Positions 2,029-24,772 of a DNA stretch of 24,990 bases are shown here, one piece after another. Origin of the DNA: a virus. The position numbers and the translations under genes are program-made. The stretch lies in the IMG/VR virus record IMGVR_UViG_3300042465_002900, positions 1-24,990 of that record; one strand, written 5' to 3'. The notes under the pieces are model-generated. The model ran no database searches. It was not told the origin of the DNA and was given only the letters and a program-made list of their open reading frames with translations. Numbering within the stretch: position 1 is the stretch's first letter; each line of letters opens with the position of its first letter.

Positions 2029-4853
2029 TGGCTGTTGGTGTAAACATTGTCAGTAGTTTCAGCGGTGGTGGAATTAGTAAGGCAATCAAAGAGTTCAAGA
2101 AACTAGATGGCGCTAGTGCAAAGAGTGCGTTCGCACTTGGCACATTGGACAAGAGTGCAACTTCGGCTGTTAAAGGTTTGGCGAAGGCTGGCGCTGGTGT
2201 TGCTGTTGTTGCTGGCGCTATTGGTTACAAGTTGGCAAGTGCCGCCTATGAGTCGCAGAAAGTTATGGCGCAAACAACTGCCATCATTACTGCAACGGGT
2301 GGTGCGGCTGGTGTTACTGCCGAACAGGTAGCAACATTGTCCGAGAAGTTGGCAATGCAAATTGGTGTTGATGACGAACTAATCCAATCATCGGCAAACC
2401 TATTACTTACCTTCAAGTCTGTTAAAAATCAGGCAGGCGAAAACAACGACATCTTTGACCGTGCGGTAACTGTTACACAAGACATGGCAAATGTTTTCGG
2501 TGGTGCAGATGGTGCCGCCAAACAATTAGGCAAAGCACTATCTGACCCCGTTGCTGGATTAACTGCACTAAAGAAATCTGGCATTGACTTTACTGAGCAA
2601 CAGAAAACACAAATTGAAACGCTTGTGAAGTCTGGCAAGTCTCTTGAAGCACAGAAAATAATCTTGGAAGAAATTGAGAACCAAGTTGGTGGCACAGCCG
2701 CCGCAAGTGCAACAGGTTTTGACCGCATGAAAGTTGCTGTTGGCAATGTGGCAGAAACCTTTGGTGCATTGCTTATTCCGTTCATTGAACGCTTTGCCAA
2801 CTTTGTTATTAACAATGTTGTTCCGTACATGGACAAACTCGCTGAGGTGTTAGGCACGCGAGGCATTGGTGGTTTGGTAAGCACACTTGCTGATGACTTC
2901 TTAAACATGACAAGCAACATGGGCAAGACAGGCAATATCATCATGGGCATTGTTACCGCTTTCATTATGTTGAAAGGCGCAATGATGGCGTTTACTATTG
3001 CGCAAGGCATTGCAACGATTGCAACTAAGGCGTTTGGTGTTGCATGGAACTCAACAGGCATTGGCTTGATTGCCGCCGCAATCGCCGCAGTTGTTATTGG
3101 TTTGATTGCGCTGTATGTAAAGTTTGAATCAGTGCGCAAGGTTGTTAATGCGCTTGGCGAGATATTGAAGTTTGTTGTTATGAATGCCATCGCAGGCGTG
3201 TACAACTATTTCGTTACCTTTATCAACGCCGCGATTATTGGATTCAATGCTTTGATTAAAGTTGCCAACTATTTTGGCGCTGACTTAGAGGAACAAGAAA
3301 CACTTGGCTATATGGCGTTCTCTGGTTTGTCTATTGGTGCGGACAATGCCAAAGGCAAGGTGCTAGATGTTGCAGACGCATTGCGCCAAGTCAAGAACGA
3401 AGAACGCAAACTTGAAGGCAAAGGCACAGGCGCTACTACGCCACCAACAAACTTAGGTGGTGGTGCGGCGAAAACAATTAAGACGCTGAAAGAGTTGAAA
3501 GCAGAATACAAAGACGCAGTGCTCGGACTTAATGATGCACAGGTCAAACTTGTTGATTCAACACAAGGTATTGCTGACGCACAACAGAAAGTAATTGACG
3601 CAACTAACAGTGTTGATGACGCATTCAGAGGCATTGGCAAAGCAGAACAAGAAGTAACAAACAAAATCAAAGCGCATGAGAAAGCACAACGAGCAGTCAC
3701 AGAGGCAATGTCAGAAGCCGCTGATGCTGTACTTGAAACACAAAGAGCACAAGACAAGTTGGCAAAGTCAACTGCCCTTGTTACCAAAGCACAACTTGCA
3801 TTTGATGAGGCAGTGCGCGGTTATGGTGCAGACAGCAAGCAAGGACGCAAAGCACAAGACGAACTAGGCGAGGCACAGCGAGACTTGGAGACAAGTGGCT
3901 ACGACTTAGAAGAAGCACAGTTTGCATTGATTGATGCAGAGAAAGAATTAGCCCTTGTTCGTGCCAACAGTGAGAGCACGCAACGGGATATTCGCCAAGC
4001 CGAAATTGATTTGGCAACTGCCAAGTTAGATGTGATTGAGGCGGAACGCGAGCAGAAGATTGCCCAAGACGAAGCAACTGCAAGCGGTGATAACTACAAC
4101 CAGATGTTGAACGGCATTAAGACTGACAGCGAACTTTACAAAGAGTTGCTAGATGCACTTAATGAATCAAAGGTGGCAGAGCAAGAAGCAATTGACGCAG
4201 TTACCGAGGCACGCAAGGCGGAAGCAGAAGCAACCACAGCAATCACTGAGGCACTCAACGAAGAACAAACAGCGTTAATAGAAATTGAAGATGCCAAGTT
4301 GGCAGTCGCCAAAGCAATACGCGACCACGAGAAAGCCTTGTATGACGAAGCCGCCGCAATCAGAGATGTTGCTAAGGCACAACTTGAAGAAGCGAAAGCA
4401 ATAGACGAAGTACGCATTGCACAACAGAAGTTGAACGAGGCAAAGAAAGTTAAGGGTTTGACACCTGCCGCTATTGCCAAAGTTGATACAGCCGTAGCAG
4501 GCGTCCTCGCGGCCGCAAATGCGGTGGTGGCTGGTGTTGGCACATCTGTGGCTACTGGCGCAACAGCGAGCACGGCAGGCATGTCTGCGAGCGCATTTGA
4601 ACACATGATGTATCGCAATGGTTTGGCTGATGGTGGAATTGCTATGCGCCCAACATTGCGCTTAATCGGCGAGTCAGGACCAGAGGCAGTAATTCCTCTC
4701 AGTCGTATGGGCGAAGAAGGTGGAACAACAATAAACATAAGTGTTAATGCAGGCATTGGCGCAGACGGTGGCGCAATTGGCAACGCTGTTGTTGATGCAC
4801 TTGTTAAATACCAACGGCGCAACGGCGCAATTCCAATCGCAGTTAAGGGCTAA
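2028..4853 (+). CDS. Tail tape measure protein
   Basis: 941 residues, the longest gene here. The N-terminal part (about 1-250) has the TP901-like look, with AAYESQKVMAQTTAIITATG and a GVDDELIQSSANLLLTFKSV stretch. Residues about 300-410 hold several hydrophobic segments (such as IGLIAAAIAAVVIGLIALYV) that may insert in the host membrane. Residues about 490-800 are a long Ala/Glu/Lys/Asp-rich coiled coil. Near the C-terminus is GESGPEAVIPLSR, a motif common at the end of tape measure proteins. By the usual 0.15 nm per residue the tail would be about 140 nm long. It is coupled to the upstream gene by TAATG overlap, and the minor tail gene follows. Confidence 0.9.
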   Translation: MAVGVNIVSSFSGGGISKAIKEFKKLDGASAKSAFALGTLDKSATSAVKGLAKAGAGVAVVAGAIGYKLASAAYESQKVMAQTTAIITATGGAAGVTAEQVATLSEKLAMQIGVDDELIQSSANLLLTFKSVKNQAGENNDIFDRAVTVTQDMANVFGGADGAAKQLGKALSDPVAGLTALKKSGIDFTEQQKTQIETLVKSGKSLEAQKIILEEIENQVGGTAAASATGFDRMKVAVGNVAETFGALLIPFIERFANFVINNVVPYMDKLAEVLGTRGIGGLVSTLADDFLNMTSNMGKTGNIIMGIVTAFIMLKGAMMAFTIAQGIATIATKAFGVAWNSTGIGLIAAAIAAVVIGLIALYVKFESVRKVVNALGEILKFVVMNAIAGVYNYFVTFINAAIIGFNALIKVANYFGADLEEQETLGYMAFSGLSIGADNAKGKVLDVADALRQVKNEERKLEGKGTGATTPPTNLGGGAAKTIKTLKELKAEYKDAVLGLNDAQVKLVDSTQGIADAQQKVIDATNSVDDAFRGIGKAEQEVTNKIKAHEKAQRAVTEAMSEAADAVLETQRAQDKLAKSTALVTKAQLAFDEAVRGYGADSKQGRKAQDELGEAQRDLETSGYDLEEAQFALIDAEKELALVRANSESTQRDIRQAEIDLATAKLDVIEAEREQKIAQDEATASGDNYNQMLNGIKTDSELYKELLDALNESKVAEQEAIDAVTEARKAEAEATTAITEALNEEQTALIEIEDAKLAVAKAIRDHEKALYDEAAAIRDVAKAQLEEAKAIDEVRIAQQKLNEAKKVKGLTPAAIAKVDTAVAGVLAAANAVVAGVGTSVATGATASTAGMSASAFEHMMYRNGLADGGIAMRPTLRLIGESGPEAVIPLSRMGEEGGTTINISVNAGIGADGGAIGNAVVDALVKYQRRNGAIPIAVKG

Positions 4854-6785: not shown

Positions 6786-7646
6786 ATGGTGCTTCGTTGG
6801 GACCAACGCAACAAGACAGGTGTGCTGGTAAAAAACTGGTTCAATCCGTCTGTTGATATTGAATATCTTGTTGTCGCTGGTGGTGGTGCAAGTAATGGTC
6901 AGGCTGGTGGCGGTGCTGGTGGTATGCGCTCAGGCACTCTAACAATCTCTGCTGGCACGACTTTCAATGTCGTTGTTGGTGCTGGTGCGCCTACAAGCGG
7001 TGCGAGTGGCAGTGATTCATCGTTCCACACAATTACATCAACGGGTGGTGGATACGGTGCTACTTCTGCAGGTGGTGCTGTAACTGGTGGTGCTGGTGGC
7101 TCTGGTGGAGGCGGCGCACGACTTGGCGCTGGTTCAACTGCGTCAGGTGGTGCTTCATCTCCAGTCACTTCGCCTGCTCAGGGTAATGCAGGTGGTCAAG
7201 CACAATCAGGCACGGCTGGTTATTACATTGGTGGTGGTGGTGGTGGTGCTGGCTCAGTAGGTGGCAATGGTGCAGTAACAACTTCTGGTGTAGGTGGTGC
7301 TGGTGCATCATCGAGCATCACTGGTTCTGCTGTGAACTATGCAGGCGGCGGTGGTGGCACTTGCAACGGTGCAGGTGCTGTTGGTGGTGTTGGTGGTGGT
7401 GGTAATGGAGAGTTCGCACCAACGCCTGCACAGAACGGTACAGCGAACACAGGTGGTGGTGGTGGTGGGTTCTATAGCATTGGTGGTGTTGGCTTTGGCG
7501 GCTCAGGTGTTGTGTATATGCGCTATCCGATTGGCGCAACACAGAGCATCACTGTCTCAGGCGGAGTGCAATCAACAATCTCTGGCTACATCTTGCACAG
7601 TTTCACCTATACAGGAACTGTCACAGTATCGGTGACATCAGTCTAA
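6786..7646 (+). CDS. Glycine-rich tail fibre/adhesin, first copy
   Basis: 286 residues, with 6-base spacing from the upstream stop. After a short N-terminus (MVLRWDQRNKTGVLVKNWFN) comes IEYLVVAGGGA, the entry to the glycine-rich domain seen in many phage and bacterial surface proteins. Residues about 35-240 are mostly runs of Gly with Ala, Ser and Thr, likely stacked polyglycine II helices as known for the receptor-binding adhesin of phage S16. The domain closes with GGSGVVYMRYPIG. A last module (SGYILHSFTYTGTVTVSVTSV, split here as SGYILHSF and TYTGTVTVS) resembles the N-terminal module of the next gene. Probably host recognition. Confidence 0.7.
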   Translation: MVLRWDQRNKTGVLVKNWFNPSVDIEYLVVAGGGASNGQAGGGAGGMRSGTLTISAGTTFNVVVGAGAPTSGASGSDSSFHTITSTGGGYGATSAGGAVTGGAGGSGGGGARLGAGSTASGGASSPVTSPAQGNAGGQAQSGTAGYYIGGGGGGAGSVGGNGAVTTSGVGGAGASSSITGSAVNYAGGGGGTCNGAGAVGGVGGGGNGEFAPTPAQNGTANTGGGGGGFYSIGGVGFGGSGVVYMRYPIGATQSITVSGGVQSTISGYILHSFTYTGTVTVSVTSV

Positions 7647-8482
7647 TGTCTCGCTCACGCAACAAGGTCGGAACATATACCTCTCAATGGGGTAACAACG
7701 CTTTGGCTACACGCACAATCTCTGGTGGCACTGAATCAATTATCAATGTGAGTGGAACGCCTTACAGACTGCACGCTTTCACATCTACTGGCACATTGAC
7801 TGTCAGCGCCAATGTTCCTATGAATGTTGAGTGTTTAGTTATCGCAGGTGGTGGTGGTGCATTCTGTGGTGGTGGTGGTGCTGGTGGTTATTTTGATGGT
7901 GGCGTGTTATTGCCTGCTGGTTCTTTCACTGTCACAGTCGGTGCAGGTGGTGCTGCAATAACAAGTGGTAATGATTCGGTATTTTCTTCGGTCACTATGA
8001 AAGGTGGTGGTCACGGTCAAAACCTTACTAATGGTGTTGCTGGTGGTTCGGGTGGTGGTGCAGGTAGTGGTGGTGGTGCCGCGTTCACTGGTGGTGCGGC
8101 ACTAACGACTGGCTCACCAGTTGTTGTGTCAGGTTTTAAGGGTGGCAACTCGCTTGCTGGTGGTGGCTACAACGCAGGCGGTGGTGGTGGCTCTGGTTTC
8201 GTTGGTGGCAATTCACCAAATAATAACGGTGGTGGTGTAGGTGGTGCTGGTAGGTTCTCTAGTATTACTGGTTCATCTGTACAGCGTGGCGGTGGTGGTG
8301 GTGGATTGACCCTTGCATCTGGTGGTACTGGTGGTGCAGGTGGCGGTGGTAACGCAGAAAGTGGTGGACTGCCTGGTGTGTCTGGTACAGCGAACACAGG
8401 CAGTGGCGGTGGCGGTGGCTTCGGTGTTGGCTTCGGTGCTGGTGGTTCAGGTGTTGTTTATGTTCGTTACCCAATTGGATAG
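7646..8482 (+). CDS. Glycine-rich tail fibre/adhesin, second copy
   Basis: 278 residues; its ATG overlaps the previous stop as TAATG. The N-terminal module (about 1-60) contains VSGTPYRLHAFTSTGTLTVS, a beta unit that usually precedes this domain, then VECLVIAGGGG and a long polyglycine region ending GGSGVVYVRYPIG, almost the same closing motif as in the first copy. The two genes are therefore diverged tandem paralogues. The Gly-rich loops differ between them, as expected for receptor-binding surfaces under selection. PE_PGRS-type origin is unlikely since there is no PE domain. Confidence 0.7.
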   Translation: MSRSRNKVGTYTSQWGNNALATRTISGGTESIINVSGTPYRLHAFTSTGTLTVSANVPMNVECLVIAGGGGAFCGGGGAGGYFDGGVLLPAGSFTVTVGAGGAAITSGNDSVFSSVTMKGGGHGQNLTNGVAGGSGGGAGSGGGAAFTGGAALTTGSPVVVSGFKGGNSLAGGGYNAGGGGGSGFVGGNSPNNNGGGVGGAGRFSSITGSSVQRGGGGGGLTLASGGTGGAGGGGNAESGGLPGVSGTANTGSGGGGGFGVGFGAGGSGVVYVRYPIG

Positions 8483-16394: not shown

Positions 16395-17492
16395 ATGCCA
16401 CAAGCACTAACACCCGAAACACGCGAAAGATATTTGCGTGCACTTGACATGCGTGACAACGGACGCACATTCCGCGACATTGCGGATGTGTGTGGTTACG
16501 CCGACCCTGCCACGGCAAGGTACGCATGGATTGGCGGCTTGCGACTTGCAGGTCGCACTGCCGAAATTCCAACACGCACACCACGCCGTGTTGGTGTACG
16601 AGTAAACAACCGCACAACAACAATGACAGTTACACAACTTGAATCGTTCGTGCAGTTGAATGCGCTTACATTCGGAATTGAAATTGAATGTGTTGGCGTG
16701 AACACAACAACAGCGAAGCAGGCACTTGAAGCCGCAGGCATTACTTGCGAGAACAATGGCTACAACCACAACACACGACCTGTATGGAAAGTTGTTACTG
16801 ACGGTTCGTTGACTAGCCGTGATGGCAGTTGCGAAGTTGTTTCGCCAGTACTTAACGGCACAGACGGTTTGACTGAAGTGCGTACAGTGATGGCAGTGTT
16901 GCGAACTGCAGGTGCACGCATTAACGAATCGTGTGGCATGCACATCCACATCGGCGTTGACCAACTTTCGCAAGTACACCAAGCACGAATCATTCGTGCG
17001 TACGGCAAATGGAGTTGGGCATTCACGGGTTTGATTTTGCAACGCCGTGTGAACAACCGTTGGGCACAGTTGCGCTCGTCAAGTGGAACTGAACGCCTTG
17101 CTTCAGATTGGGAGAACAGCAGTGACTTGCGCAGTACTGCCTCGCGCCATGACCGCTACTACGCATTCAACATTGCGTCTTACCAACGCCATGGCACATT
17201 TGAAATGCGTGCGCATCACGGTTCGTTGAACGGCATGAATGCAAGCGCATGGATTGCCATGCACACTGCCTTCTTTGAAGCATGCCGAACAGAGGCTGGG
17301 TACAACGCATTGATGGCATGTGCAACCTCGCGTGATGAGTACAACGGAAGCAGTACTCGTGGCGAAGCAATTGAAGGTGCAAAGCGTTTGGCAGTTGGCT
17401 TGCGCAACATGCAACTTCTTAGCCTTGAAGCATGTGCTTACCTAGAAAGCCGTGCAGGCAACATCCCATCCGCCCGAAGCAACAACTCATAA
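16395..17492 (+). CDS. HTH-amidoligase fusion (COOH-NH2 ligase, Amidoligase_2 type)
   Basis: 365 residues behind AACAAGGAGACAAAGA. Residues about 1-50 form a helix-turn-helix-like segment (LRALDMRDNGRTFRDIADVC). The amidoligase domain runs from about 90 to 345 with all its hallmarks: TFGIEIECVG (92-101, metal-binding Glu96 and Glu98), WKVVTDGSL (131-139), CEVVSPVL (146-153), CGMHIHIG (180-187) and GTFEMRAHHGSLN (267-279). The family is related to glutamine synthetase and makes amide bonds between a carboxylate and an amine using ATP. The next gene is a class II glutamine amidotransferase, a partner known for such phage amidoligases. The substrate is unknown; proposed roles are tagging of peptides or cell-wall parts. 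Confidence 0.85.
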   Translation: MPQALTPETRERYLRALDMRDNGRTFRDIADVCGYADPATARYAWIGGLRLAGRTAEIPTRTPRRVGVRVNNRTTTMTVTQLESFVQLNALTFGIEIECVGVNTTTAKQALEAAGITCENNGYNHNTRPVWKVVTDGSLTSRDGSCEVVSPVLNGTDGLTEVRTVMAVLRTAGARINESCGMHIHIGVDQLSQVHQARIIRAYGKWSWAFTGLILQRRVNNRWAQLRSSSGTERLASDWENSSDLRSTASRHDRYYAFNIASYQRHGTFEMRAHHGSLNGMNASAWIAMHTAFFEACRTEAGYNALMACATSRDEYNGSSTRGEAIEGAKRLAVGLRNMQLLSLEACAYLESRAGNIPSARSNNS

Positions 17493-17522
17493 CAACAACA
17501 ACAAGAAACAAGGAGACAAACA

Positions 17523-18458
17523 ATGTGTGGAATAGGCGCTTTCCAAATAATTGGAAACGAATGCGAGCCAGCGAAGGTTGCACGAGTGCTACTTCGTTTG
17601 CTTGAAGTAAGAGGCAAAGACGCAAGTGGCGTTGCGTGGCACGATGGCAACGGTGGCACATTTGTTCGCAAGAGCAACTGTGCAGGCAAGGAACTTGCAA
17701 AGGTGCTGAAGGACAATGTGGGCAACACAGGCATTGTGCATACACGCTGGGCAACTTTGGGCAGTCCAACAGTTGAAGCAAACAACCACCCGATTGATGT
17801 TGGTGGCGTTGTAGGCGTACACAACGGACATTGCACAAACCATGCCGAGTTGATTAGCAAGTGCGAAGGATATGCACGCAATGGACAAGTGGACAGCGAG
17901 GCAATCTTTGCCTTGATTGCGCACGGTCCTGCAAAGCAACGACTTCGCACACGACTTGCACAGGTGCAGGGCAATGCCGCCTTGTTGTGGTTGCGCAGTT
18001 TTGACAAGAACAACCGTTTGCATGCGGCACGACTTACAAGTAGCCCGTTGTGGTTTGGGCAAACGAAGTTGGGCAGTGTTGTGTTTGCAAGCACGCAGGC
18101 AATCTTGCTGGAGACAGGCAAGCGTTGCGGACTTGTGTTTGAGTACACACACGAAATGGCACAGGGAACTTATGTGCGAGTTGAGAACGGAGTACTTAGC
18201 GAGATGCAAACAGTTGACTTGCCTAAGCCGAAGTTCGTATTGCCGAAGCACGACTACACAAAGACAAGTGCTTACGCAAAGCCTGCAACGCAAAGCAAGG
18301 ACATTGAACTTGCAGAGCCGTTGGAATACACGCTGGACTTTGAGGACGAGTTTGATTACGAACTTGAACAATGGGAACACGACTTGTATGGCAACTCGTT
18401 GCGACACTCGCTGGACAAGCAATTCGGCATGGGCGCTTACAACAGGCACAGGTACTAA
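17523..18458 (+). CDS. Class II glutamine amidotransferase
   Basis: 311 residues behind AACAAGGAGACAAACA. The nucleophile Cys2 is in place (MCGIGAF). RGKDASG (30-36), HTRWATLG (73-80), NHP (88-90), HNGHCTN (100-106) and DSEA (124-127) are the glutamine-binding motifs of the Ntn-type domain, complete over residues 1-210. The last 80 residues are an acidic, Tyr-rich tail (LEYTLDFEDEFDYELEQWEH) not known to me in this family. It should release ammonia from glutamine for a partner, most likely the amidoligase encoded 30 bases upstream. A role with QueC in preQ0 amidation is a less likely alternative. Confidence 0.85.
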   Translation: MCGIGAFQIIGNECEPAKVARVLLRLLEVRGKDASGVAWHDGNGGTFVRKSNCAGKELAKVLKDNVGNTGIVHTRWATLGSPTVEANNHPIDVGGVVGVHNGHCTNHAELISKCEGYARNGQVDSEAIFALIAHGPAKQRLRTRLAQVQGNAALLWLRSFDKNNRLHAARLTSSPLWFGQTKLGSVVFASTQAILLETGKRCGLVFEYTHEMAQGTYVRVENGVLSEMQTVDLPKPKFVLPKHDYTKTSAYAKPATQSKDIELAEPLEYTLDFEDEFDYELEQWEHDLYGNSLRHSLDKQFGMGAYNRHRY

Positions 18459-20084: not shown

Positions 20085-20690
20085 GTGGCACACAACATAA
20101 CGAAAGAACTTGTAAAACTTGCAAAGCCAATTGACAGCGTGCAACCACACCCACGCAATGTTCGCCAAGGCGATGTTGGCGCGATAGCAACCAGCCTTGA
20201 AATAAACGGGCAGTACCGCCCAATCGTTGTGCACAAAACAACGAGCAACATTCTTGCAGGCAACCACACATACAAAGCCGCCGTGAGTTTAGGTTGGACA
20301 GAGATTGCCATTACCTTTGTTGATTGCACAGATGATGAAGCGTTAAAGATTTTGCTTGCAGACAACAAAGCAAACGACTTGGCAAGTTATGACGACAGTG
20401 CACTTGCTGACTTGTTGCAAGACTTGGTTGGTGGTGCAGGACTTGATGGCACGCTTTACGAACTCAGCGACTTAGATGATTTGATTGCATTGCTTGAACC
20501 GCCAAACCTAGATGACTTGATTAGCGACATTGGCGAGCACGACGACAACGATGACTTCACTGGCGTAATTAAAGTGCGTGTTGGTTTAAGCGTGTACGAG
20601 CGTTGGCAAAACACATATGGCGAACTCGCAGGCGATACAGATGACGAACGCATATTGAGTTTGTTAAATGGTTACGACCAAGCGCACTAA
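20085..20690 (+). CDS. ParB/sulfiredoxin-fold protein, possible DpdB-like partner of DpdA
   Basis: 201 residues from the GTG at 20085, chosen because GGAGACA lies at 20076-20082; a GTG at 20049 without a binding site would add 12 residues. HPRNVRQGDVGAIATSLEIN, GQYRPIVV (42-49) and LAGNHTYKAAVSLG (58-70) are the boxes of the ParB N-terminal domain, followed by DNKANDLASYDDSALADLLQ. The C-terminal part is very acidic. ParB-like proteins may cut or bind DNA with nucleotide. In bacterial dpd clusters DpdB is also a ParB-like protein needed with DpdA for preQ0 insertion. Here the gene overlaps the DpdA-like gene by 23 bases. A generic phage ParB-like protein is the alternative. Confidence 0.7.
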   Translation: MAHNITKELVKLAKPIDSVQPHPRNVRQGDVGAIATSLEINGQYRPIVVHKTTSNILAGNHTYKAAVSLGWTEIAITFVDCTDDEALKILLADNKANDLASYDDSALADLLQDLVGGAGLDGTLYELSDLDDLIALLEPPNLDDLISDIGEHDDNDDFTGVIKVRVGLSVYERWQNTYGELAGDTDDERILSLLNGYDQAH

Positions 20691-21600
20691 CGGACTGCAC
20701 CTTTACCTTGCGGCCGCACCATCAACCACAAGGCATGCACTAATGGCATTGAACACACCTGCAGTTGAGCCAGCCAAGTTCTTGTTGTCGTACCACTACT
20801 TCAAGAAAATGGATTTAGACGAACTCGTTGAAGGCATGGGGCAGAAGCCAATGCTGTTTGCTGATAGTGGCGCATTCAGTGCGCTCACACAAGGCGCAGA
20901 TGTAAACATAAACGAATACGCCGCATGGATTAAGCGTTGGCAACATCTACTAACTGTGTATGTAAATCTTGATGTCATTCGTGACGCGAAGGCAACAGCA
21001 AGCAACCAGAAGCGCCTTGAACAACTTGGCTTGCAACCAATACCCGTGTTTCATACAGGCAGTGATTTCAAGCACTTAGACAAACTCGTTAAGACTTACC
21101 CGTACATCGCATTAGGTGGCATGGTTGGTGCAGAGGCGCAGGCGTGCTTCCGTTGGGCGGCAACTTGCATGAAGCGCACCGAAGAATATGGCACATGCTT
21201 TCATGGCTTCGGACAAACACGCAAGCAACTGATTGCCAACTTGCCTTGGTACAGCGTTGATTCATCGTCTTGGGGCAGTGGACATAGGTATGGCGCACTT
21301 GATATTTGGACAGGCAAAGAGTTTGCCAAAATAAAGATTGGCAATAAAGCAAGCGTGTACAAACACGCAAGCACATTACGCAAGTATGGCGTTGACCCCG
21401 TTTGCCTTTCTGACCGTGGGCGTTACCACCAGAAGTATGCAATCCGCATAAGCGCACAAAGTTGGCATGACTACGAACAACACCTGCGCCGCCGACATGG
21501 CGCAATACCTTGCCAAGACAGGGCAGACGGTTTGCACCTGTACTTAGTTGATGGCGCGAAAACAAATCTACAAGACGCAGGCAAAGCGATATTCAAATGA
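20668..21600 (+). CDS. dpdA: DpdA-like DNA guanine transglycosylase (tRNA-guanine transglycosylase fold)
   Basis: 310 residues. Key segments of the phage DpdA-type TIM barrel are ADSGAFSAL (65-73, catalytic Asp66 by analogy), YVNLDVI (98-104), PIPVFH (124-129), ALGGMV (148-153), HGFGQT (179-184) and SVDSSSW (196-202). The enzyme should swap guanine in DNA for preQ0 or a derivative. The QueC, QueD, QueE and FolE genes that supply preQ0 follow, which supports this role. I see no Cys zinc cluster like that in tRNA-type enzymes. The protein has an oddity: NGLHLYLAA at 8-16 and DGLHLYLVD at 288-296 are near repeats at its two ends. Confidence 0.8.
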   Translation: MVTTKRTNGLHLYLAAAPSTTRHALMALNTPAVEPAKFLLSYHYFKKMDLDELVEGMGQKPMLFADSGAFSALTQGADVNINEYAAWIKRWQHLLTVYVNLDVIRDAKATASNQKRLEQLGLQPIPVFHTGSDFKHLDKLVKTYPYIALGGMVGAEAQACFRWAATCMKRTEEYGTCFHGFGQTRKQLIANLPWYSVDSSSWGSGHRYGALDIWTGKEFAKIKIGNKASVYKHASTLRKYGVDPVCLSDRGRYHQKYAIRISAQSWHDYEQHLRRRHGAIPCQDRADGLHLYLVDGAKTNLQDAGKAIFK

Positions 21601-22013
21601 TTGTTGTTATTAACTGTGGCAAACAGAAGGCAACAGAGCCACGACCTGCCTATTCGCTGTACACAGGTTCATTCTTTAGAACATCAATGCAGTGGGCAAG
21701 ATGTTATGCACCGCAGAAAAACATATACATCATCTCTGCAAGGTATGGCATAGTGCGCTCGACAACAGTGCTTCAACCGTATGACCAACGCATTAAGCGT
21801 GATGTGCTTAACCCTGCAATGGTAAAGAAGCAAGCAAAGCAATTAGGCATAGACAAACACAAACCTTTGTTGATTGTCGGCAAGAGATATATGCACTTAA
21901 TTGATGCAGTGTGGCAAGACTACGAAGCACCATTTGCAGGCATTGAAGGCTTCGCAATGCAACAGGCAATGAAACGACATATAAACAAACTCAAACAACA
22001 GGAGAGCAAATGA
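21597..22013 (+). CDS. DUF6884-like protein in the 7-deazaguanine operon
   Basis: 138 residues, overlapping both neighbours by ATGA. VINCGKQKATEPRPAYSLYT, then IYIISARYGIVRSTTVLQPYD and KPLLIVGKRYMHLIDAVW match the pattern of DUF6884, a small family with a 'CGk.K......a..lY.G..f....a......i.ILSA.yGl' signature related to YaaA-type proteins. I know it from phages, often next to DpdA-like genes. Its function is not established. The location between DpdA and QueC suggests a part in modification or DNA contact. Confidence 0.7.
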   Translation: MIVVINCGKQKATEPRPAYSLYTGSFFRTSMQWARCYAPQKNIYIISARYGIVRSTTVLQPYDQRIKRDVLNPAMVKKQAKQLGIDKHKPLLIVGKRYMHLIDAVWQDYEAPFAGIEGFAMQQAMKRHINKLKQQESK

Positions 22014-22705
22014 AAACAGTGGCAATCGTTTCAGGCGGCATGGACAGCGTTGTATTGGCACACATGTTGTCAAGCGAAGGACATGACTTAACACTCGTTT
22101 CGTTTAACTACGGGCAACGCCACAGCAAAGAACTACTGTACGCCGCCCAATGCGCACAAGATTTAGAAGCACGCCACCACATTGTTGATTTGTCCAATGT
22201 GACTGCAATGCTTGACCAATCAGCATTAACCAATCCCAACATTGAAATTCCAGACGGACATTACGCAGAGGACACAATGCGAATCACTGTTGTGCCAAAC
22301 CGCAATGCAATCATGTTGAACATTGCCGCAGGTTTGGCAGTAAGCATTGGTGCAAACAAAGTTGCAACAGGTGTGCACGGTGGCGACCACTACATTTATC
22401 CCGACTGCCGACCAGCGTTTATTAAGGCAACTGATGCCATGTTGTGTGTTGCCACAGATGGCTTTGCAACCAAAGACTTTGGCGTGCTTGCACCATTCCT
22501 TAACTGGACAAAGGGCGATATTGCTCGCGAAGGCAACAGGTTAGGCGTTGACTTCACTAAGACATGGAGTTGCTACAAAGGCGGCGAGATACATTGTGGC
22601 GCTTGTGGAACATGCTTTGAACGCAGAGAAGCATTCGCAGAAGCAGAAGTGTTTGACTTTACTGAATATCTAGCCACACCCGAATACAACGACCCAAGGA
22701 AATAA
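22010..22705 (+). CDS. queC: 7-cyano-7-deazaguanine (preQ0) synthase QueC
   Basis: 231 residues. The PP-loop SGGMDS (8-13) binds ATP. YGQRH (34-38), VPNRN (95-99) and YPDCR (130-134) are conserved QueC motifs. The C-terminal zinc site is complete: Cys188, Cys196, Cys199 and Cys202 (SCYKGGEIHCGACGTCFERR). It turns CDG into preQ0 using ATP and ammonia. It is a free-standing QueC; the class II amidotransferase domain fused to QueC in some phages is absent from this protein. It overlaps the upstream gene and ends 1 base before queD. Confidence 0.95.
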   Translation: MKTVAIVSGGMDSVVLAHMLSSEGHDLTLVSFNYGQRHSKELLYAAQCAQDLEARHHIVDLSNVTAMLDQSALTNPNIEIPDGHYAEDTMRITVVPNRNAIMLNIAAGLAVSIGANKVATGVHGGDHYIYPDCRPAFIKATDAMLCVATDGFATKDFGVLAPFLNWTKGDIAREGNRLGVDFTKTWSCYKGGEIHCGACGTCFERREAFAEAEVFDFTEYLATPEYNDPRK

Positions 22706-22706
22706 C

Positions 22707-23060
22707 ATGTACACAATTACAAAGCAATTCACATTCAGCGCATCGCACCAACTAACTGGCTTGCCTGCCAATCACCAATGCGCCAGGTTGCATGGGCACA
22801 ACTACATTGTTGAGGCAGTGTTGCAAGCAAAGAAGGTTGATGCAGTTGGTTTCGTGCGCGACTACGGCGAACTCAGTTACATTGGCAACTACATTGACGC
22901 AGTGCTTGACCACAAACACTTGAATGATTTGTTTGAGTGCAACCCAACAGCAGAAAACATGGCACGAGTGCTGTACGACAAGTTCGTTGTGCAATACCCT
23001 GAACTCGTTGCCATACGCATTAGCGAAACAACAAAGACATGGGCTGAATACCGCAAGTGA
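22707..23060 (+). CDS. queD: 6-carboxy-5,6,7,8-tetrahydropterin synthase QueD
   Basis: 117 residues, the usual short form. The zinc ligands are His14 (SASHQL), His29 and His31 (RLHGHNY), with the catalytic Cys25 four residues before HGH. DHKHLND (68-74) supplies the His of the catalytic triad, PTAENMA (80-86) is a family hallmark and the terminal Glu107 in SETTKTW binds the pterin. It converts the FolE product to CPH4. AGGA at 22696-22700 serves as binding site. Confidence 0.95.
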   Translation: MYTITKQFTFSASHQLTGLPANHQCARLHGHNYIVEAVLQAKKVDAVGFVRDYGELSYIGNYIDAVLDHKHLNDLFECNPTAENMARVLYDKFVVQYPELVAIRISETTKTWAEYRK

Positions 23061-23062
23061 AA

Positions 23063-23118
23063 CGCCTGCACCTTTACCCCAAAGCACACAATCTCTCGCG
23101 TTACAACGCAACTGTGAG
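23063..23118 (+). repeat. Copy 2 of the 56-base two-part element, upstream of queE
   Basis: CGCCTGCACCTTTACCCCA (23063-23081) plus CTCGC-N8-ACGCAACTGTGAG (23095-23118) repeat copy 1 at 19936-19991 with the same spacing. It fills the only real gap in the operon, just before queE, so it may give queE and the FolE fusion gene a promoter of their own. Base identity outside the boxes is low. Confidence 0.65.
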
Positions 23119-23126
23119 TGCGTGAA

Positions 23127-23894
23127 ATGGCTGACTTTGACGCAATGAGCACGATTATGAACAAACAACCGCAACTCAGTTGGAGTGAATGTTTCGGCCC
23201 AACACTGCAAGGCGAAGGCAAACACATTGGCAAACAGTCGTATTTCATTCGGCTTGGCTTATGCAACCTTGATTGCAAATGGTGTGACACGCCTTACACA
23301 TGGGATTGGACAGGCAAGAACGGGCACAAGTATTCAAAGGCAATTGAGTTAAGGCGTTCAACTGTTAGTGAGTTAGCCGCCAAAGTGCCGGCAACATGCC
23401 AACATGTTGTGCTTACAGGTGGCGAACCAATGTTGCAACAAACAGCGTTGTTTGAATTGTGCACACTGTTGCGCGACAGAGGGCACAGTGTTGAGATAGA
23501 AACAAACGGCACAATCAAACCAAAGTCAAGAGACTGGCTACGCAACGCAGAACAACACAGTGACATTGGCGTTCAATTCAATGTGTCACCGAAGTTAGGT
23601 AACAGTGGCGTTGCATGGGAGATTGCAATTAACGAAGAAGCGTTGATTGAGTACAAACACCTTGGCGCAATCTTTAAGTTTGTTATCACTAATGCTGATG
23701 ACTTGGCACAGGTTGCGTACCTGCAGAACGCATTGCAACTGGCAAGCGATTCAATTTACATAATGCCTGAAGGACGCACACAACAAGAGATACTGGCGAA
23801 GTTGCCTGAACTGTTTGATGTGTGTGCGCAAGAAGGATATGTATTAACACCACGCCTACATGTGTTGGCGTTCAACGATAAGAGGGGCATATGA
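23127..23894 (+). CDS. queE: 7-carboxy-7-deazaguanine synthase QueE
   Basis: 255 residues from ATG 23127; a GTG at 23118 would add 3 residues but overlaps the conserved element. The radical SAM cluster motif is CNLDCKWC (CX3CX2C), in RLGLCNLDCKWCDTPYTWDW. TGGEPMLQ binds SAM, ETNGT and VSPKLG follow, and the end RLHVLAFNDKRGI is typical of QueE. It needs SAM and Mg to convert CPH4 to CDG, contracting the ring. The gene overlaps the FolE fusion gene by ATGA. Confidence 0.95.
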   Translation: MADFDAMSTIMNKQPQLSWSECFGPTLQGEGKHIGKQSYFIRLGLCNLDCKWCDTPYTWDWTGKNGHKYSKAIELRRSTVSELAAKVPATCQHVVLTGGEPMLQQTALFELCTLLRDRGHSVEIETNGTIKPKSRDWLRNAEQHSDIGVQFNVSPKLGNSGVAWEIAINEEALIEYKHLGAIFKFVITNADDLAQVAYLQNALQLASDSIYIMPEGRTQQEILAKLPELFDVCAQEGYVLTPRLHVLAFNDKRGI

Positions 23895-24772
23895 GACACA
23901 TCACATGGCTAGAGGTACAAGCAGAAGCAGAACGCATTGCAAAGACTTGGCGTGGGCGTTGCGACAATGTGTACGGCATACCGCAAGGTGGTGCGCCACT
24001 AGCAGTAATGGTTGCCTACATACTTGGCGTGCCGTTAGCGCAAGAGCCAAAGATAGGCATGAACACACTTGTTGTTGATGACTTAGTTGATTCAGGCAAA
24101 ACATTGAAACGCTATTTCGGCAAGCACCATGTTGATGCCGCCTTTCGCAAGAGCCACTCGCCAACGCACTATGCACCAGACGCAACCTGCATAGATGATT
24201 GGTTGTCGTTTCCGTGGGAGAAGAACGATGGTGCGCCTACAGATGGCGTTGTGCGCTTGCTCGAATACATTGGCGAAAACCCTGAGCGTGATGGTTTGCG
24301 TGATACGCCTGAGCGTGTACTGAAGGCAATGAAAGAGATGACTGTTGGTTACAACACCGACATTGCACAGTTGTTGTCCGTGTCGTTTGATGTGGACTTT
24401 GATGAATTGGTTGTTGTGCGCAATGTGCCTTTCAACAGCCTGTGCGAGCACCACATGTTGCCGTTCACTGGCACTGCAACCGTTGGCTACATACCTAAGA
24501 AGCGCATTGTTGGTTTGTCAAAACTTGCACGCCTTGTTGATGCGTATGCCAAACGCCTACAGGTGCAAGAGCGCATGACTAAACAGATTGCCGATGCAAT
24601 GCTTGAACACATTGACCCGCTTGGCTGTGGTGTTGTTGTGCGTGGCAATCATTCGTGCATGTCGTGCCGTGGCATTAACAAAACAGGTGAAATGGTTACG
24701 AGCAGTCTGCATGGCGTGTTGCGCAATGACGGCATTGCTCGCGCCGAGTTCCTCGCACTTGCAGGCTATTAA
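23891..24772 (+). CDS. folE: Xanthine-guanine phosphoribosyltransferase-like domain fused to GTP cyclohydrolase I (FolE)
   Basis: 293 residues in two domains. Residues 1-110 resemble E. coli Gpt: ITWLEVQAEAERIAKTW, GIPQGGAPLAVMVAYILGV, the PRPP loop VVDDLVDSGKT (61-71) and the end IDDWLSFPWE. Residues about 115-293 are FolE: EYIGENPERDGLRDTPERVL, SLCEHHMLPF (Cys185 and His188 zinc ligands), GLSKLARLVDAYAKRLQVQE and HSCMSCRGI (Cys256 as third ligand). FolE starts preQ0 synthesis by making dihydroneopterin triphosphate from GTP. The transferase may recycle guanine, the by-product of DpdA. Fusion of these two domains is unusual. The E. coli order of motifs is kept, but Gpt's segment between the two motifs is shortened. 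Confidence 0.9.
   Translation: MRHITWLEVQAEAERIAKTWRGRCDNVYGIPQGGAPLAVMVAYILGVPLAQEPKIGMNTLVVDDLVDSGKTLKRYFGKHHVDAAFRKSHSPTHYAPDATCIDDWLSFPWEKNDGAPTDGVVRLLEYIGENPERDGLRDTPERVLKAMKEMTVGYNTDIAQLLSVSFDVDFDELVVVRNVPFNSLCEHHMLPFTGTATVGYIPKKRIVGLSKLARLVDAYAKRLQVQERMTKQIADAMLEHIDPLGCGVVVRGNHSCMSCRGINKTGEMVTSSLHGVLRNDGIARAEFLALAGY

Follow-up and report, generated by a model that had tools for sequence, protein, structure and literature searches.

A phosphoribosyltransferase-FolE fusion in many deazaguanine phages suggests recapture of guanine thrown out during DNA modification

The last gene of a 7-deazaguanine DNA-modification cluster in IMG/VR virus record IMGVR_UViG_3300042465_002900 encodes a two-domain protein: a short, loop-less purine phosphoribosyltransferase (PRT) domain followed by a complete FolE (GTP cyclohydrolase I) domain. 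Occurrence of this fusion in many deazaguanine phages suggests recapture of the guanine that is expelled when modified bases enter the DNA. The analysed stretch of the record (the window) is 24,990 bases long. Pfam and PHROG matches place dpdA, folE, queC, queD and queE, all five genes of a phage 7-deazaguanine DNA-modification cluster, at 20668-24772. The gene order is dpdA-DUF6884-queC-queD-queE-folE, and the ATG of the fusion ORF overlaps the stop codon of queE (ATGA). The genes upstream of the fusion are as follows.

20668..21600, + strand, dpdA, DNA transglycosylase (phrog_887, 3.5e-51)
21597..22013, + strand, DUF6884 protein, YaaA-like (PF21818, 4.2e-17)
22010..22705, + strand, queC (PF06508, 1.4e-62)
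22707..23060, + strand, queD (PF01242, 7.3e-30)
23118..23894, + strand, queE (phrog_2076, QueE-like, 4.5e-59)

The DUF6884 gene overlaps both dpdA and queC and was found in only seven of the collected loci. Further upstream of dpdA, at 16395-18458, the window carries an Amidoligase_2 gene (PF12224) and then a gene for a stand-alone glutamine amidotransferase (PF13522); this pair could be a separate peptide-type system or could be related to Gat-QueC chemistry.

The fusion gene and its parts are located as follows.

23891..24772, + strand, PRT-FolE fusion gene, 293 aa, ATG start (ORF analysis)
23891..24220, + strand, loop-less purine PRT N-domain, residues 1-110 (PF00156, PHROG 8995, profile, Foldseek)
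23981..23992, + strand, PPi loop P31-Q32-G33-G34 (alignment of relatives)
24068..24103, + strand, PRPP-binding motif LVVDDLVDSGKT, residues 60-71 (conservation in fused proteins)
24149..24151, + strand, K87, candidate purine-site Lys (present in 79 of 90 fused proteins)
24200..24220, + strand, W104-LSF-PWE110 motif (aligned with W-IEQ-PWD of Gpt-type enzymes)
24221..24244, + strand, linker, residues 111-118 (lowest confidence in the full-protein model)
24245..24772, + strand, complete FolE domain (PF01227, invariant residues, Foldseek)

The FolE part (residues ~118-290) matched PF01227 with E=2.1e-64 over residues 120-290, covering profile positions 5-177 of 179. In comparison with 68 relatives, C185, H188 and C256 are invariant, and the larger set that also includes E186, H187, S210, K211, H254 and R260 is invariant or nearly so; we take the first three to be the Zn ligands of FolE and the whole set to be its Zn/catalytic residues. 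The AlphaFold model of the full protein has a pLDDT of 95.7, and its best Foldseek neighbours are human and Thermus GTP cyclohydrolase I (6z86/1wm9).

The isolated N-domain matched PF00156 with E=1.5e-6 and PHROG 8995 (‘phosphoribosyl transferase’) with E=6.7e-8. A profile made of 29 N-domains matched PDB entries over the whole length: the purine PRT of P. horikoshii (1vdm, 3.5e-14), Yersinia XGPRT (1.8e-11) and E. coli XGPRT (1.8e-10). For the AlphaFold model of the N-domain (pLDDT 95.2, pTM 0.88), the best 50 Foldseek matches in PDB were nearly all 6-oxopurine PRTs, with TM about 0.78; a Neisseria PRT-like protein with bound ppGpp (5vog) is also among the structural neighbours.

Residues of the predicted sites are well conserved. 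The segment LVVDDLVDSGKT has the type I PRPP motif DD-x-x-D-[ST]-G-x-T, with D63, D64, G69 and T71 present in all 90 fused proteins and D67 in 89 of them. The GG of the PPi loop is kept; the basic residue of this loop is Gln in the window and Arg in 60 of the 90. The purine-site Lys (K87) and the stacking aromatic residue (W104) are both present in the window N-domain, and among the fused proteins W104 was found in 88 and E110 in 86. K87 is aligned with the Lys of Gpt (K115) that contacts purine O6, and D67 with the Asp of Gpt that contacts purine N7. Across 90 fused and 29 separate proteins the PRPP motif, the PPi-loop GG, W104 and PWE110 are near-invariant and K87 is mostly kept, although the PRT domains are only about 30% identical. 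Judged by sequence and predicted structure, the N-domain belongs with the Gpt-type 6-oxopurine PRTs.

The N-domain is 110 aa long versus about 150 aa for Gpt. The PPi-loop GG and the DD of the PRPP motif are mostly about 26-28 residues apart, whereas E. coli Gpt has about 47 here. The deletion, about 19-25 residues long, removes the flexible catalytic loop and the neighbouring strands between the PPi and PRPP loops. DSSP assigned three strands of three or more residues to the N-domain model. The definition of type I PRTs includes the flexible loop (loop II) and a core with five or more parallel strands (PMC2228302); the window N-domain has neither. Because these defining elements are missing, we describe the N-domain as a Gpt-derived minimal PRT, not a Gpt. 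The initial annotation had described the first 110 residues as XGPRT-like and the rest as complete FolE: the second statement is borne out by the match to PF01227 and the retained Zn/catalytic residues, while the first stands, by PF00156, PHROG 8995, profile and Foldseek, for a shortened Gpt and not for a complete one. Structure prediction against Gpt and FolE, a check proposed at that time, returned a purine PRT fold for the N-domain and a GTP cyclohydrolase I fold for the C-domain.

A domain search for other fusions of this type, proposed likewise, was productive. In the set of loci collected from IMG/VR scans and phage records, with repeats removed, we identified 90 distinct fused loci, 29 loci with a separate PRT gene near folE, 19 with folE alone and 7 with a PRT gene but no folE in the flank. 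Recurrence in 90 distinct loci rules out that the fusion is a unique or chance event, a frameshift or an assembly artefact. Fused genes are present in isolates such as Nipunavirus phages (JG054, NP1, PaMx25), Vibrio phages VpKK5 and 033B, and Stenotrophomonas, Xanthomonas and Sphingomonas (MMDA13) phages; the fused proteins of sequenced isolates are annotated only as GTP cyclohydrolase. PRT and FolE are encoded by adjacent genes in Flavobacterium phage immuto. A full-length PRT gene directly follows folE in Brevundimonas phage StAshley; canonical full-length PRTs are also found beside a dNMP kinase gene in phiST and beside folE in locus L165, the latter with the flexible loop intact. In Pseudomonas phage MIJ3 gpt directly precedes queE, and in Campylobacter phage CP21 the PRT gene is near radical-SAM genes. 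Searches for a PRT detected none in the phage 9g genome or in eight IMG/VR contigs with folE, and the match to CAjan FolE spans residues 120-275 only, i.e. the FolE part.

A bacterial origin of the fusion was considered and rejected, as a single scan of bacterial and archaeal genomes gave almost only full-length gpt-like matches. The same scan yielded a phage-like cluster (L180) and a stand-alone loop-less PRT in a Patescibacteria MAG (L181:4056-4451); one plasmid copy exists as well. The Patescibacteria gene has no deazaguanine genes nearby, so the minimal form exists outside phage clusters.

The PRT is closely linked to the deazaguanine pathway. In a scan with the PRT domain only, which is biased because the query was taken from fused proteins, 76 of 80 loci had deazaguanine genes at a distance of up to about 5 kb, and 73 of the 80 had FolE. 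Separate PRT genes with a pathway gene in their flank were present in 32 loci; in all of these the closest que, folE or dpdA gene is on the same strand, and in 29 it is within 300 bp; these PRT genes often adjoin queD, queE or queC and not folE. The flank encodes a DpdA, either type 1 or type 2, in 72 of the 90 fused and 26 of the 29 separate loci. The 18 fused loci with no DpdA in the flank are mostly short fragments; the three of them examined as whole records (L105, L099 and L050) all contain one.

PRT phages devoid of DpdA would have spoken for a nucleotide route. StAshley and phiST seemed to be such phages, but alignment showed that each carries a DpdA-like gene of the second type, and CP21 matches too. 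The CP21 gene (NC_019507.1:41312-42088, L292), annotated as hypothetical, matches the second-type DpdA alignment (A5) at 1e-42; StAshley 6975-7775, phiST CGPG_00065 and the DpdA of immuto belong to the same family. Searches for DpdA, which may miss divergent forms, gave no match in MIJ3, a Sinorhizobium plasmid and a few incomplete contigs. The plasmid, from Sinorhizobium chiapasense (NZ_CP133151.1:88757-92224, L293), has the order queD-[PRT-folE]-queE-queC, with neither DpdA nor TGT found on it, and looks like a domesticated phage cluster. In its PRT the catalytic-type Asp D67 is replaced by Asn; the MIJ3 PRT has lost the purine Lys and Trp. Damaged PRT sites in the two cases where DpdA was not found would weakly fit a catalytic role tied to DpdA. 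Two loci with PRT and DpdA but no FolE (L171 and L172) prove nothing here, because their PRT gene is flanked by genes other than dpdA.

A quick tree of 140 FolE domains, with some long branches, implies about 16 changes of fusion state, at least six of which are forced by strong branches. The nearest relative of the window (L007) has a FolE that is 77% identical, starts right at the queE stop and has no PRT domain. Since this relative has dpdA and such a similar FolE, the PRT domain is modular and dispensable. L007 carries two dpdA genes, at 723-1733 and 2270-3121, which flank a DUF6884 gene. In close pairs dN/dS of the PRT part is 0.05-0.23, with FolE mostly lower; by this comparison of coding sequences the PRT domain is under clear purifying selection.

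From the domains, their conserved sites, the purifying selection and the pathway linkage, we infer catalysis, guanine as the substrate and a benefit to the phage. In the explanation that we put ahead of the others, though at slightly less than an even call, the loop-less PRT fused to FolE recaptures guanine released by DpdA, and host kinases bring the resulting GMP back to GTP. The C-domain FolE would start preQ0 synthesis from GTP. TGT releases one guanine for each base that it inserts. DpdA is taken to exchange bases as TGT does (PMC6884629), and for this reason one guanine should leave the DNA per modified base brought in. The N-domain would bind this guanine together with PRPP and produce GMP, which host kinases would convert to GTP, the FolE substrate. 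Removal of guanine would eliminate the competing substrate of the exchange, so that base exchange would be pulled forward and GTP spared. The amounts could be considerable: CAjan DNA contains 70,628 dPreQ0 per 10^6 nt, or 32% of Gs (PMC6884629), which by arithmetic means that about 8,400 guanines are set free for each 59,670-bp genome; in a volume of 1 fL, a burst of 100 at the CAjan level would bring guanine near 1 mM.

In StAshley, phiST and L165 this position is taken by canonical full-length PRTs, which supports, by analogy, a catalytic function. Still, several observations weaken the case for recapture: the flexible loop and a part of the core sheet are absent; in the window protein Gln stands in place of the PPi-loop Arg; a PRT was not detected in 9g, and the sister locus L007 lacks the PRT domain; the similar loop-less PRT of Patescibacteria has no pathway genes nearby. 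With the CAjan FolE match confined to the FolE part and no PRT detected in 9g, phages can reach high modification in the absence of a PRT. Hosts generally have guanine PRTs of their own. Besides, two kinase steps separate GMP from the FolE substrate; the fusion, therefore, cannot channel GMP directly to FolE. The guanine recycling loop proposed initially thus gains from the 6-oxopurine PRT fold, the conserved PRPP and purine residues and the dpdA-linked clusters, and loses from the deleted loop, the Arg to Gln change and the PRT-free 9g and L007; its return of GMP to GTP for FolE would run through host kinases. Somewhat more tentatively, phage 7-deazaguanine systems may commonly include, unnoticed so far, such a loop-less PRT, either fused to FolE or encoded next to que genes, for recapture of DpdA-released guanine. 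It would work with no catalytic loop of the usual kind; in the fused protein, an adjacent subunit of the FolE assembly might cover the active site.

The main rival, which we regard as rather unlikely, is that the PRT domain acts as a sensor: it would bind PRPP, guanine/GMP or ppGpp and tune FolE in cis when fused or in trans when separate, much as GFRP adjusts animal GTP cyclohydrolase I. Retention of ligand-site residues along with loss of the catalytic loop agrees with such a role, as do the ppGpp-bound structural neighbour from Neisseria and the attachment to the entry enzyme of the pathway, a placement consistent with flux control. Yet other phages have full-length PRTs with the loop at this position, D67 (the catalytic-type Asp) and the purine Lys are kept although pure PRPP binding would not require them, and separate PRT genes often have queD, queE or queC as neighbours in place of folE. 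The deleted loop, together with the absence of the domain from L007, could also mean that the domain is a relic or a structural appendage that has no role in ligand binding and is retained because it helps the FolE decamer to fold or assemble; near-invariant site residues in such divergent domains, the low dN/dS and the existence of stand-alone versions make this very improbable.

Two other explanations keep the enzymatic activity and change the substrate. Enzymes of the Gpt family use guanine, xanthine and hypoxanthine, and in some phages genes of RNR and dNMP kinases adjoin the PRT gene, so the PRT could serve general purine salvage, converting any 6-oxopurine from host nucleic-acid breakdown, with its position in the cluster reflecting shared expression only. 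We find this improbable, as the family was recovered almost exclusively from deazaguanine clusters, with FolE itself as a repeated fusion partner. Alternatively, the PRT could turn a 7-deazaguanine base (preQ0 or a derivative) into a nucleotide, either for storage or, via a reductase and a dNMP kinase, for incorporation by polymerase. In StAshley and phiST the PRT gene is near genes for RNR and dNMP kinase, which fits this route; a DpdA-independent, modified-dGTP route has also been suggested for Campylobacter phages, as relayed in PMC6884629, and CP21 has a PRT. This route is not needed, however, because DpdA-type genes accompany the PRT nearly everywhere, StAshley, phiST and CP21 included. 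In addition, D67, aligned with the N7-contacting Asp of Gpt, is kept, and a C7 nitrile would meet it. We therefore give the nucleotide route little chance.

Among known systems, E. coli Gpt/XGPRT and P. horikoshii 1vdm share with the window N-domain the fold, the order of elements, the PRPP motif, the PPi-loop GG, the purine Lys and W-xxx-PW[DE]; the window protein differs in having no flexible loop and adjacent strands, in Gln replacing the PPi-loop Arg and in the fusion to FolE. Phages 9g and CAjan share the FolE domain, and 9g has the same gene order beside queD and dpdA; the 9g FolE, however, is a 204-aa protein with no PRT domain. It complements E. coli folE (PMC6884629). The PHROG 8995 PRTs of phiST and Campylobacter phage CP21 belong to the same family and to deazaguanine phages, but are encoded by separate genes; phiST keeps the loop sequence, while the CP21 protein is shorter. 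The Zobellia galactanivorans HGPRT-adenylate kinase fusion is bifunctional, with an N-terminal purine PRT shown to be active (PMC7326950); unlike the window protein, it keeps the flexible loop and its partner is a kinase, not FolE (PMC7326950).

We found no description of a PRT-FolE fusion in the literature searched (mostly openly readable papers); only FolE is mentioned by Hutinet et al. (PMC6884629) and in the paper on MMDA13 (PMC7472734). The earlier impression that no enzyme with this coupling has been described holds as far as this literature goes, although the architecture already exists in sequenced phages under the name of GTP cyclohydrolase. As far as searched, then, the parts are known while the PRT-FolE architecture and its breadth are undescribed. 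Nor did this literature contain a paper addressing the fate of DpdA-released guanine. DpdA-type modification should free a guanine for every modified base, which adds up to thousands per genome, at an equal cost in GTP, and the PRT module that dozens of diverse phages link to the first enzyme of the pathway is a concrete, assayable candidate for determining where that guanine goes. If the module is active, a type I PRT can work without the catalytic loop; if inactive, it is a new regulatory domain of FolE.

Two peculiarities of individual loci were observed. In Pseudomonas phage PIP (OR687155.1 34466-40677, L278) several pathway genes, queE and folE among them, are split into short ORFs in comparison with other Nipunavirus phages, probably due to sequencing errors. 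In L020 (and L022) FolE, encoded in an ORF of 527 aa starting at 3750, is split by an insert of about 325 residues that has a weak LAGLIDADG match and is probably an intein in a phage FolE.
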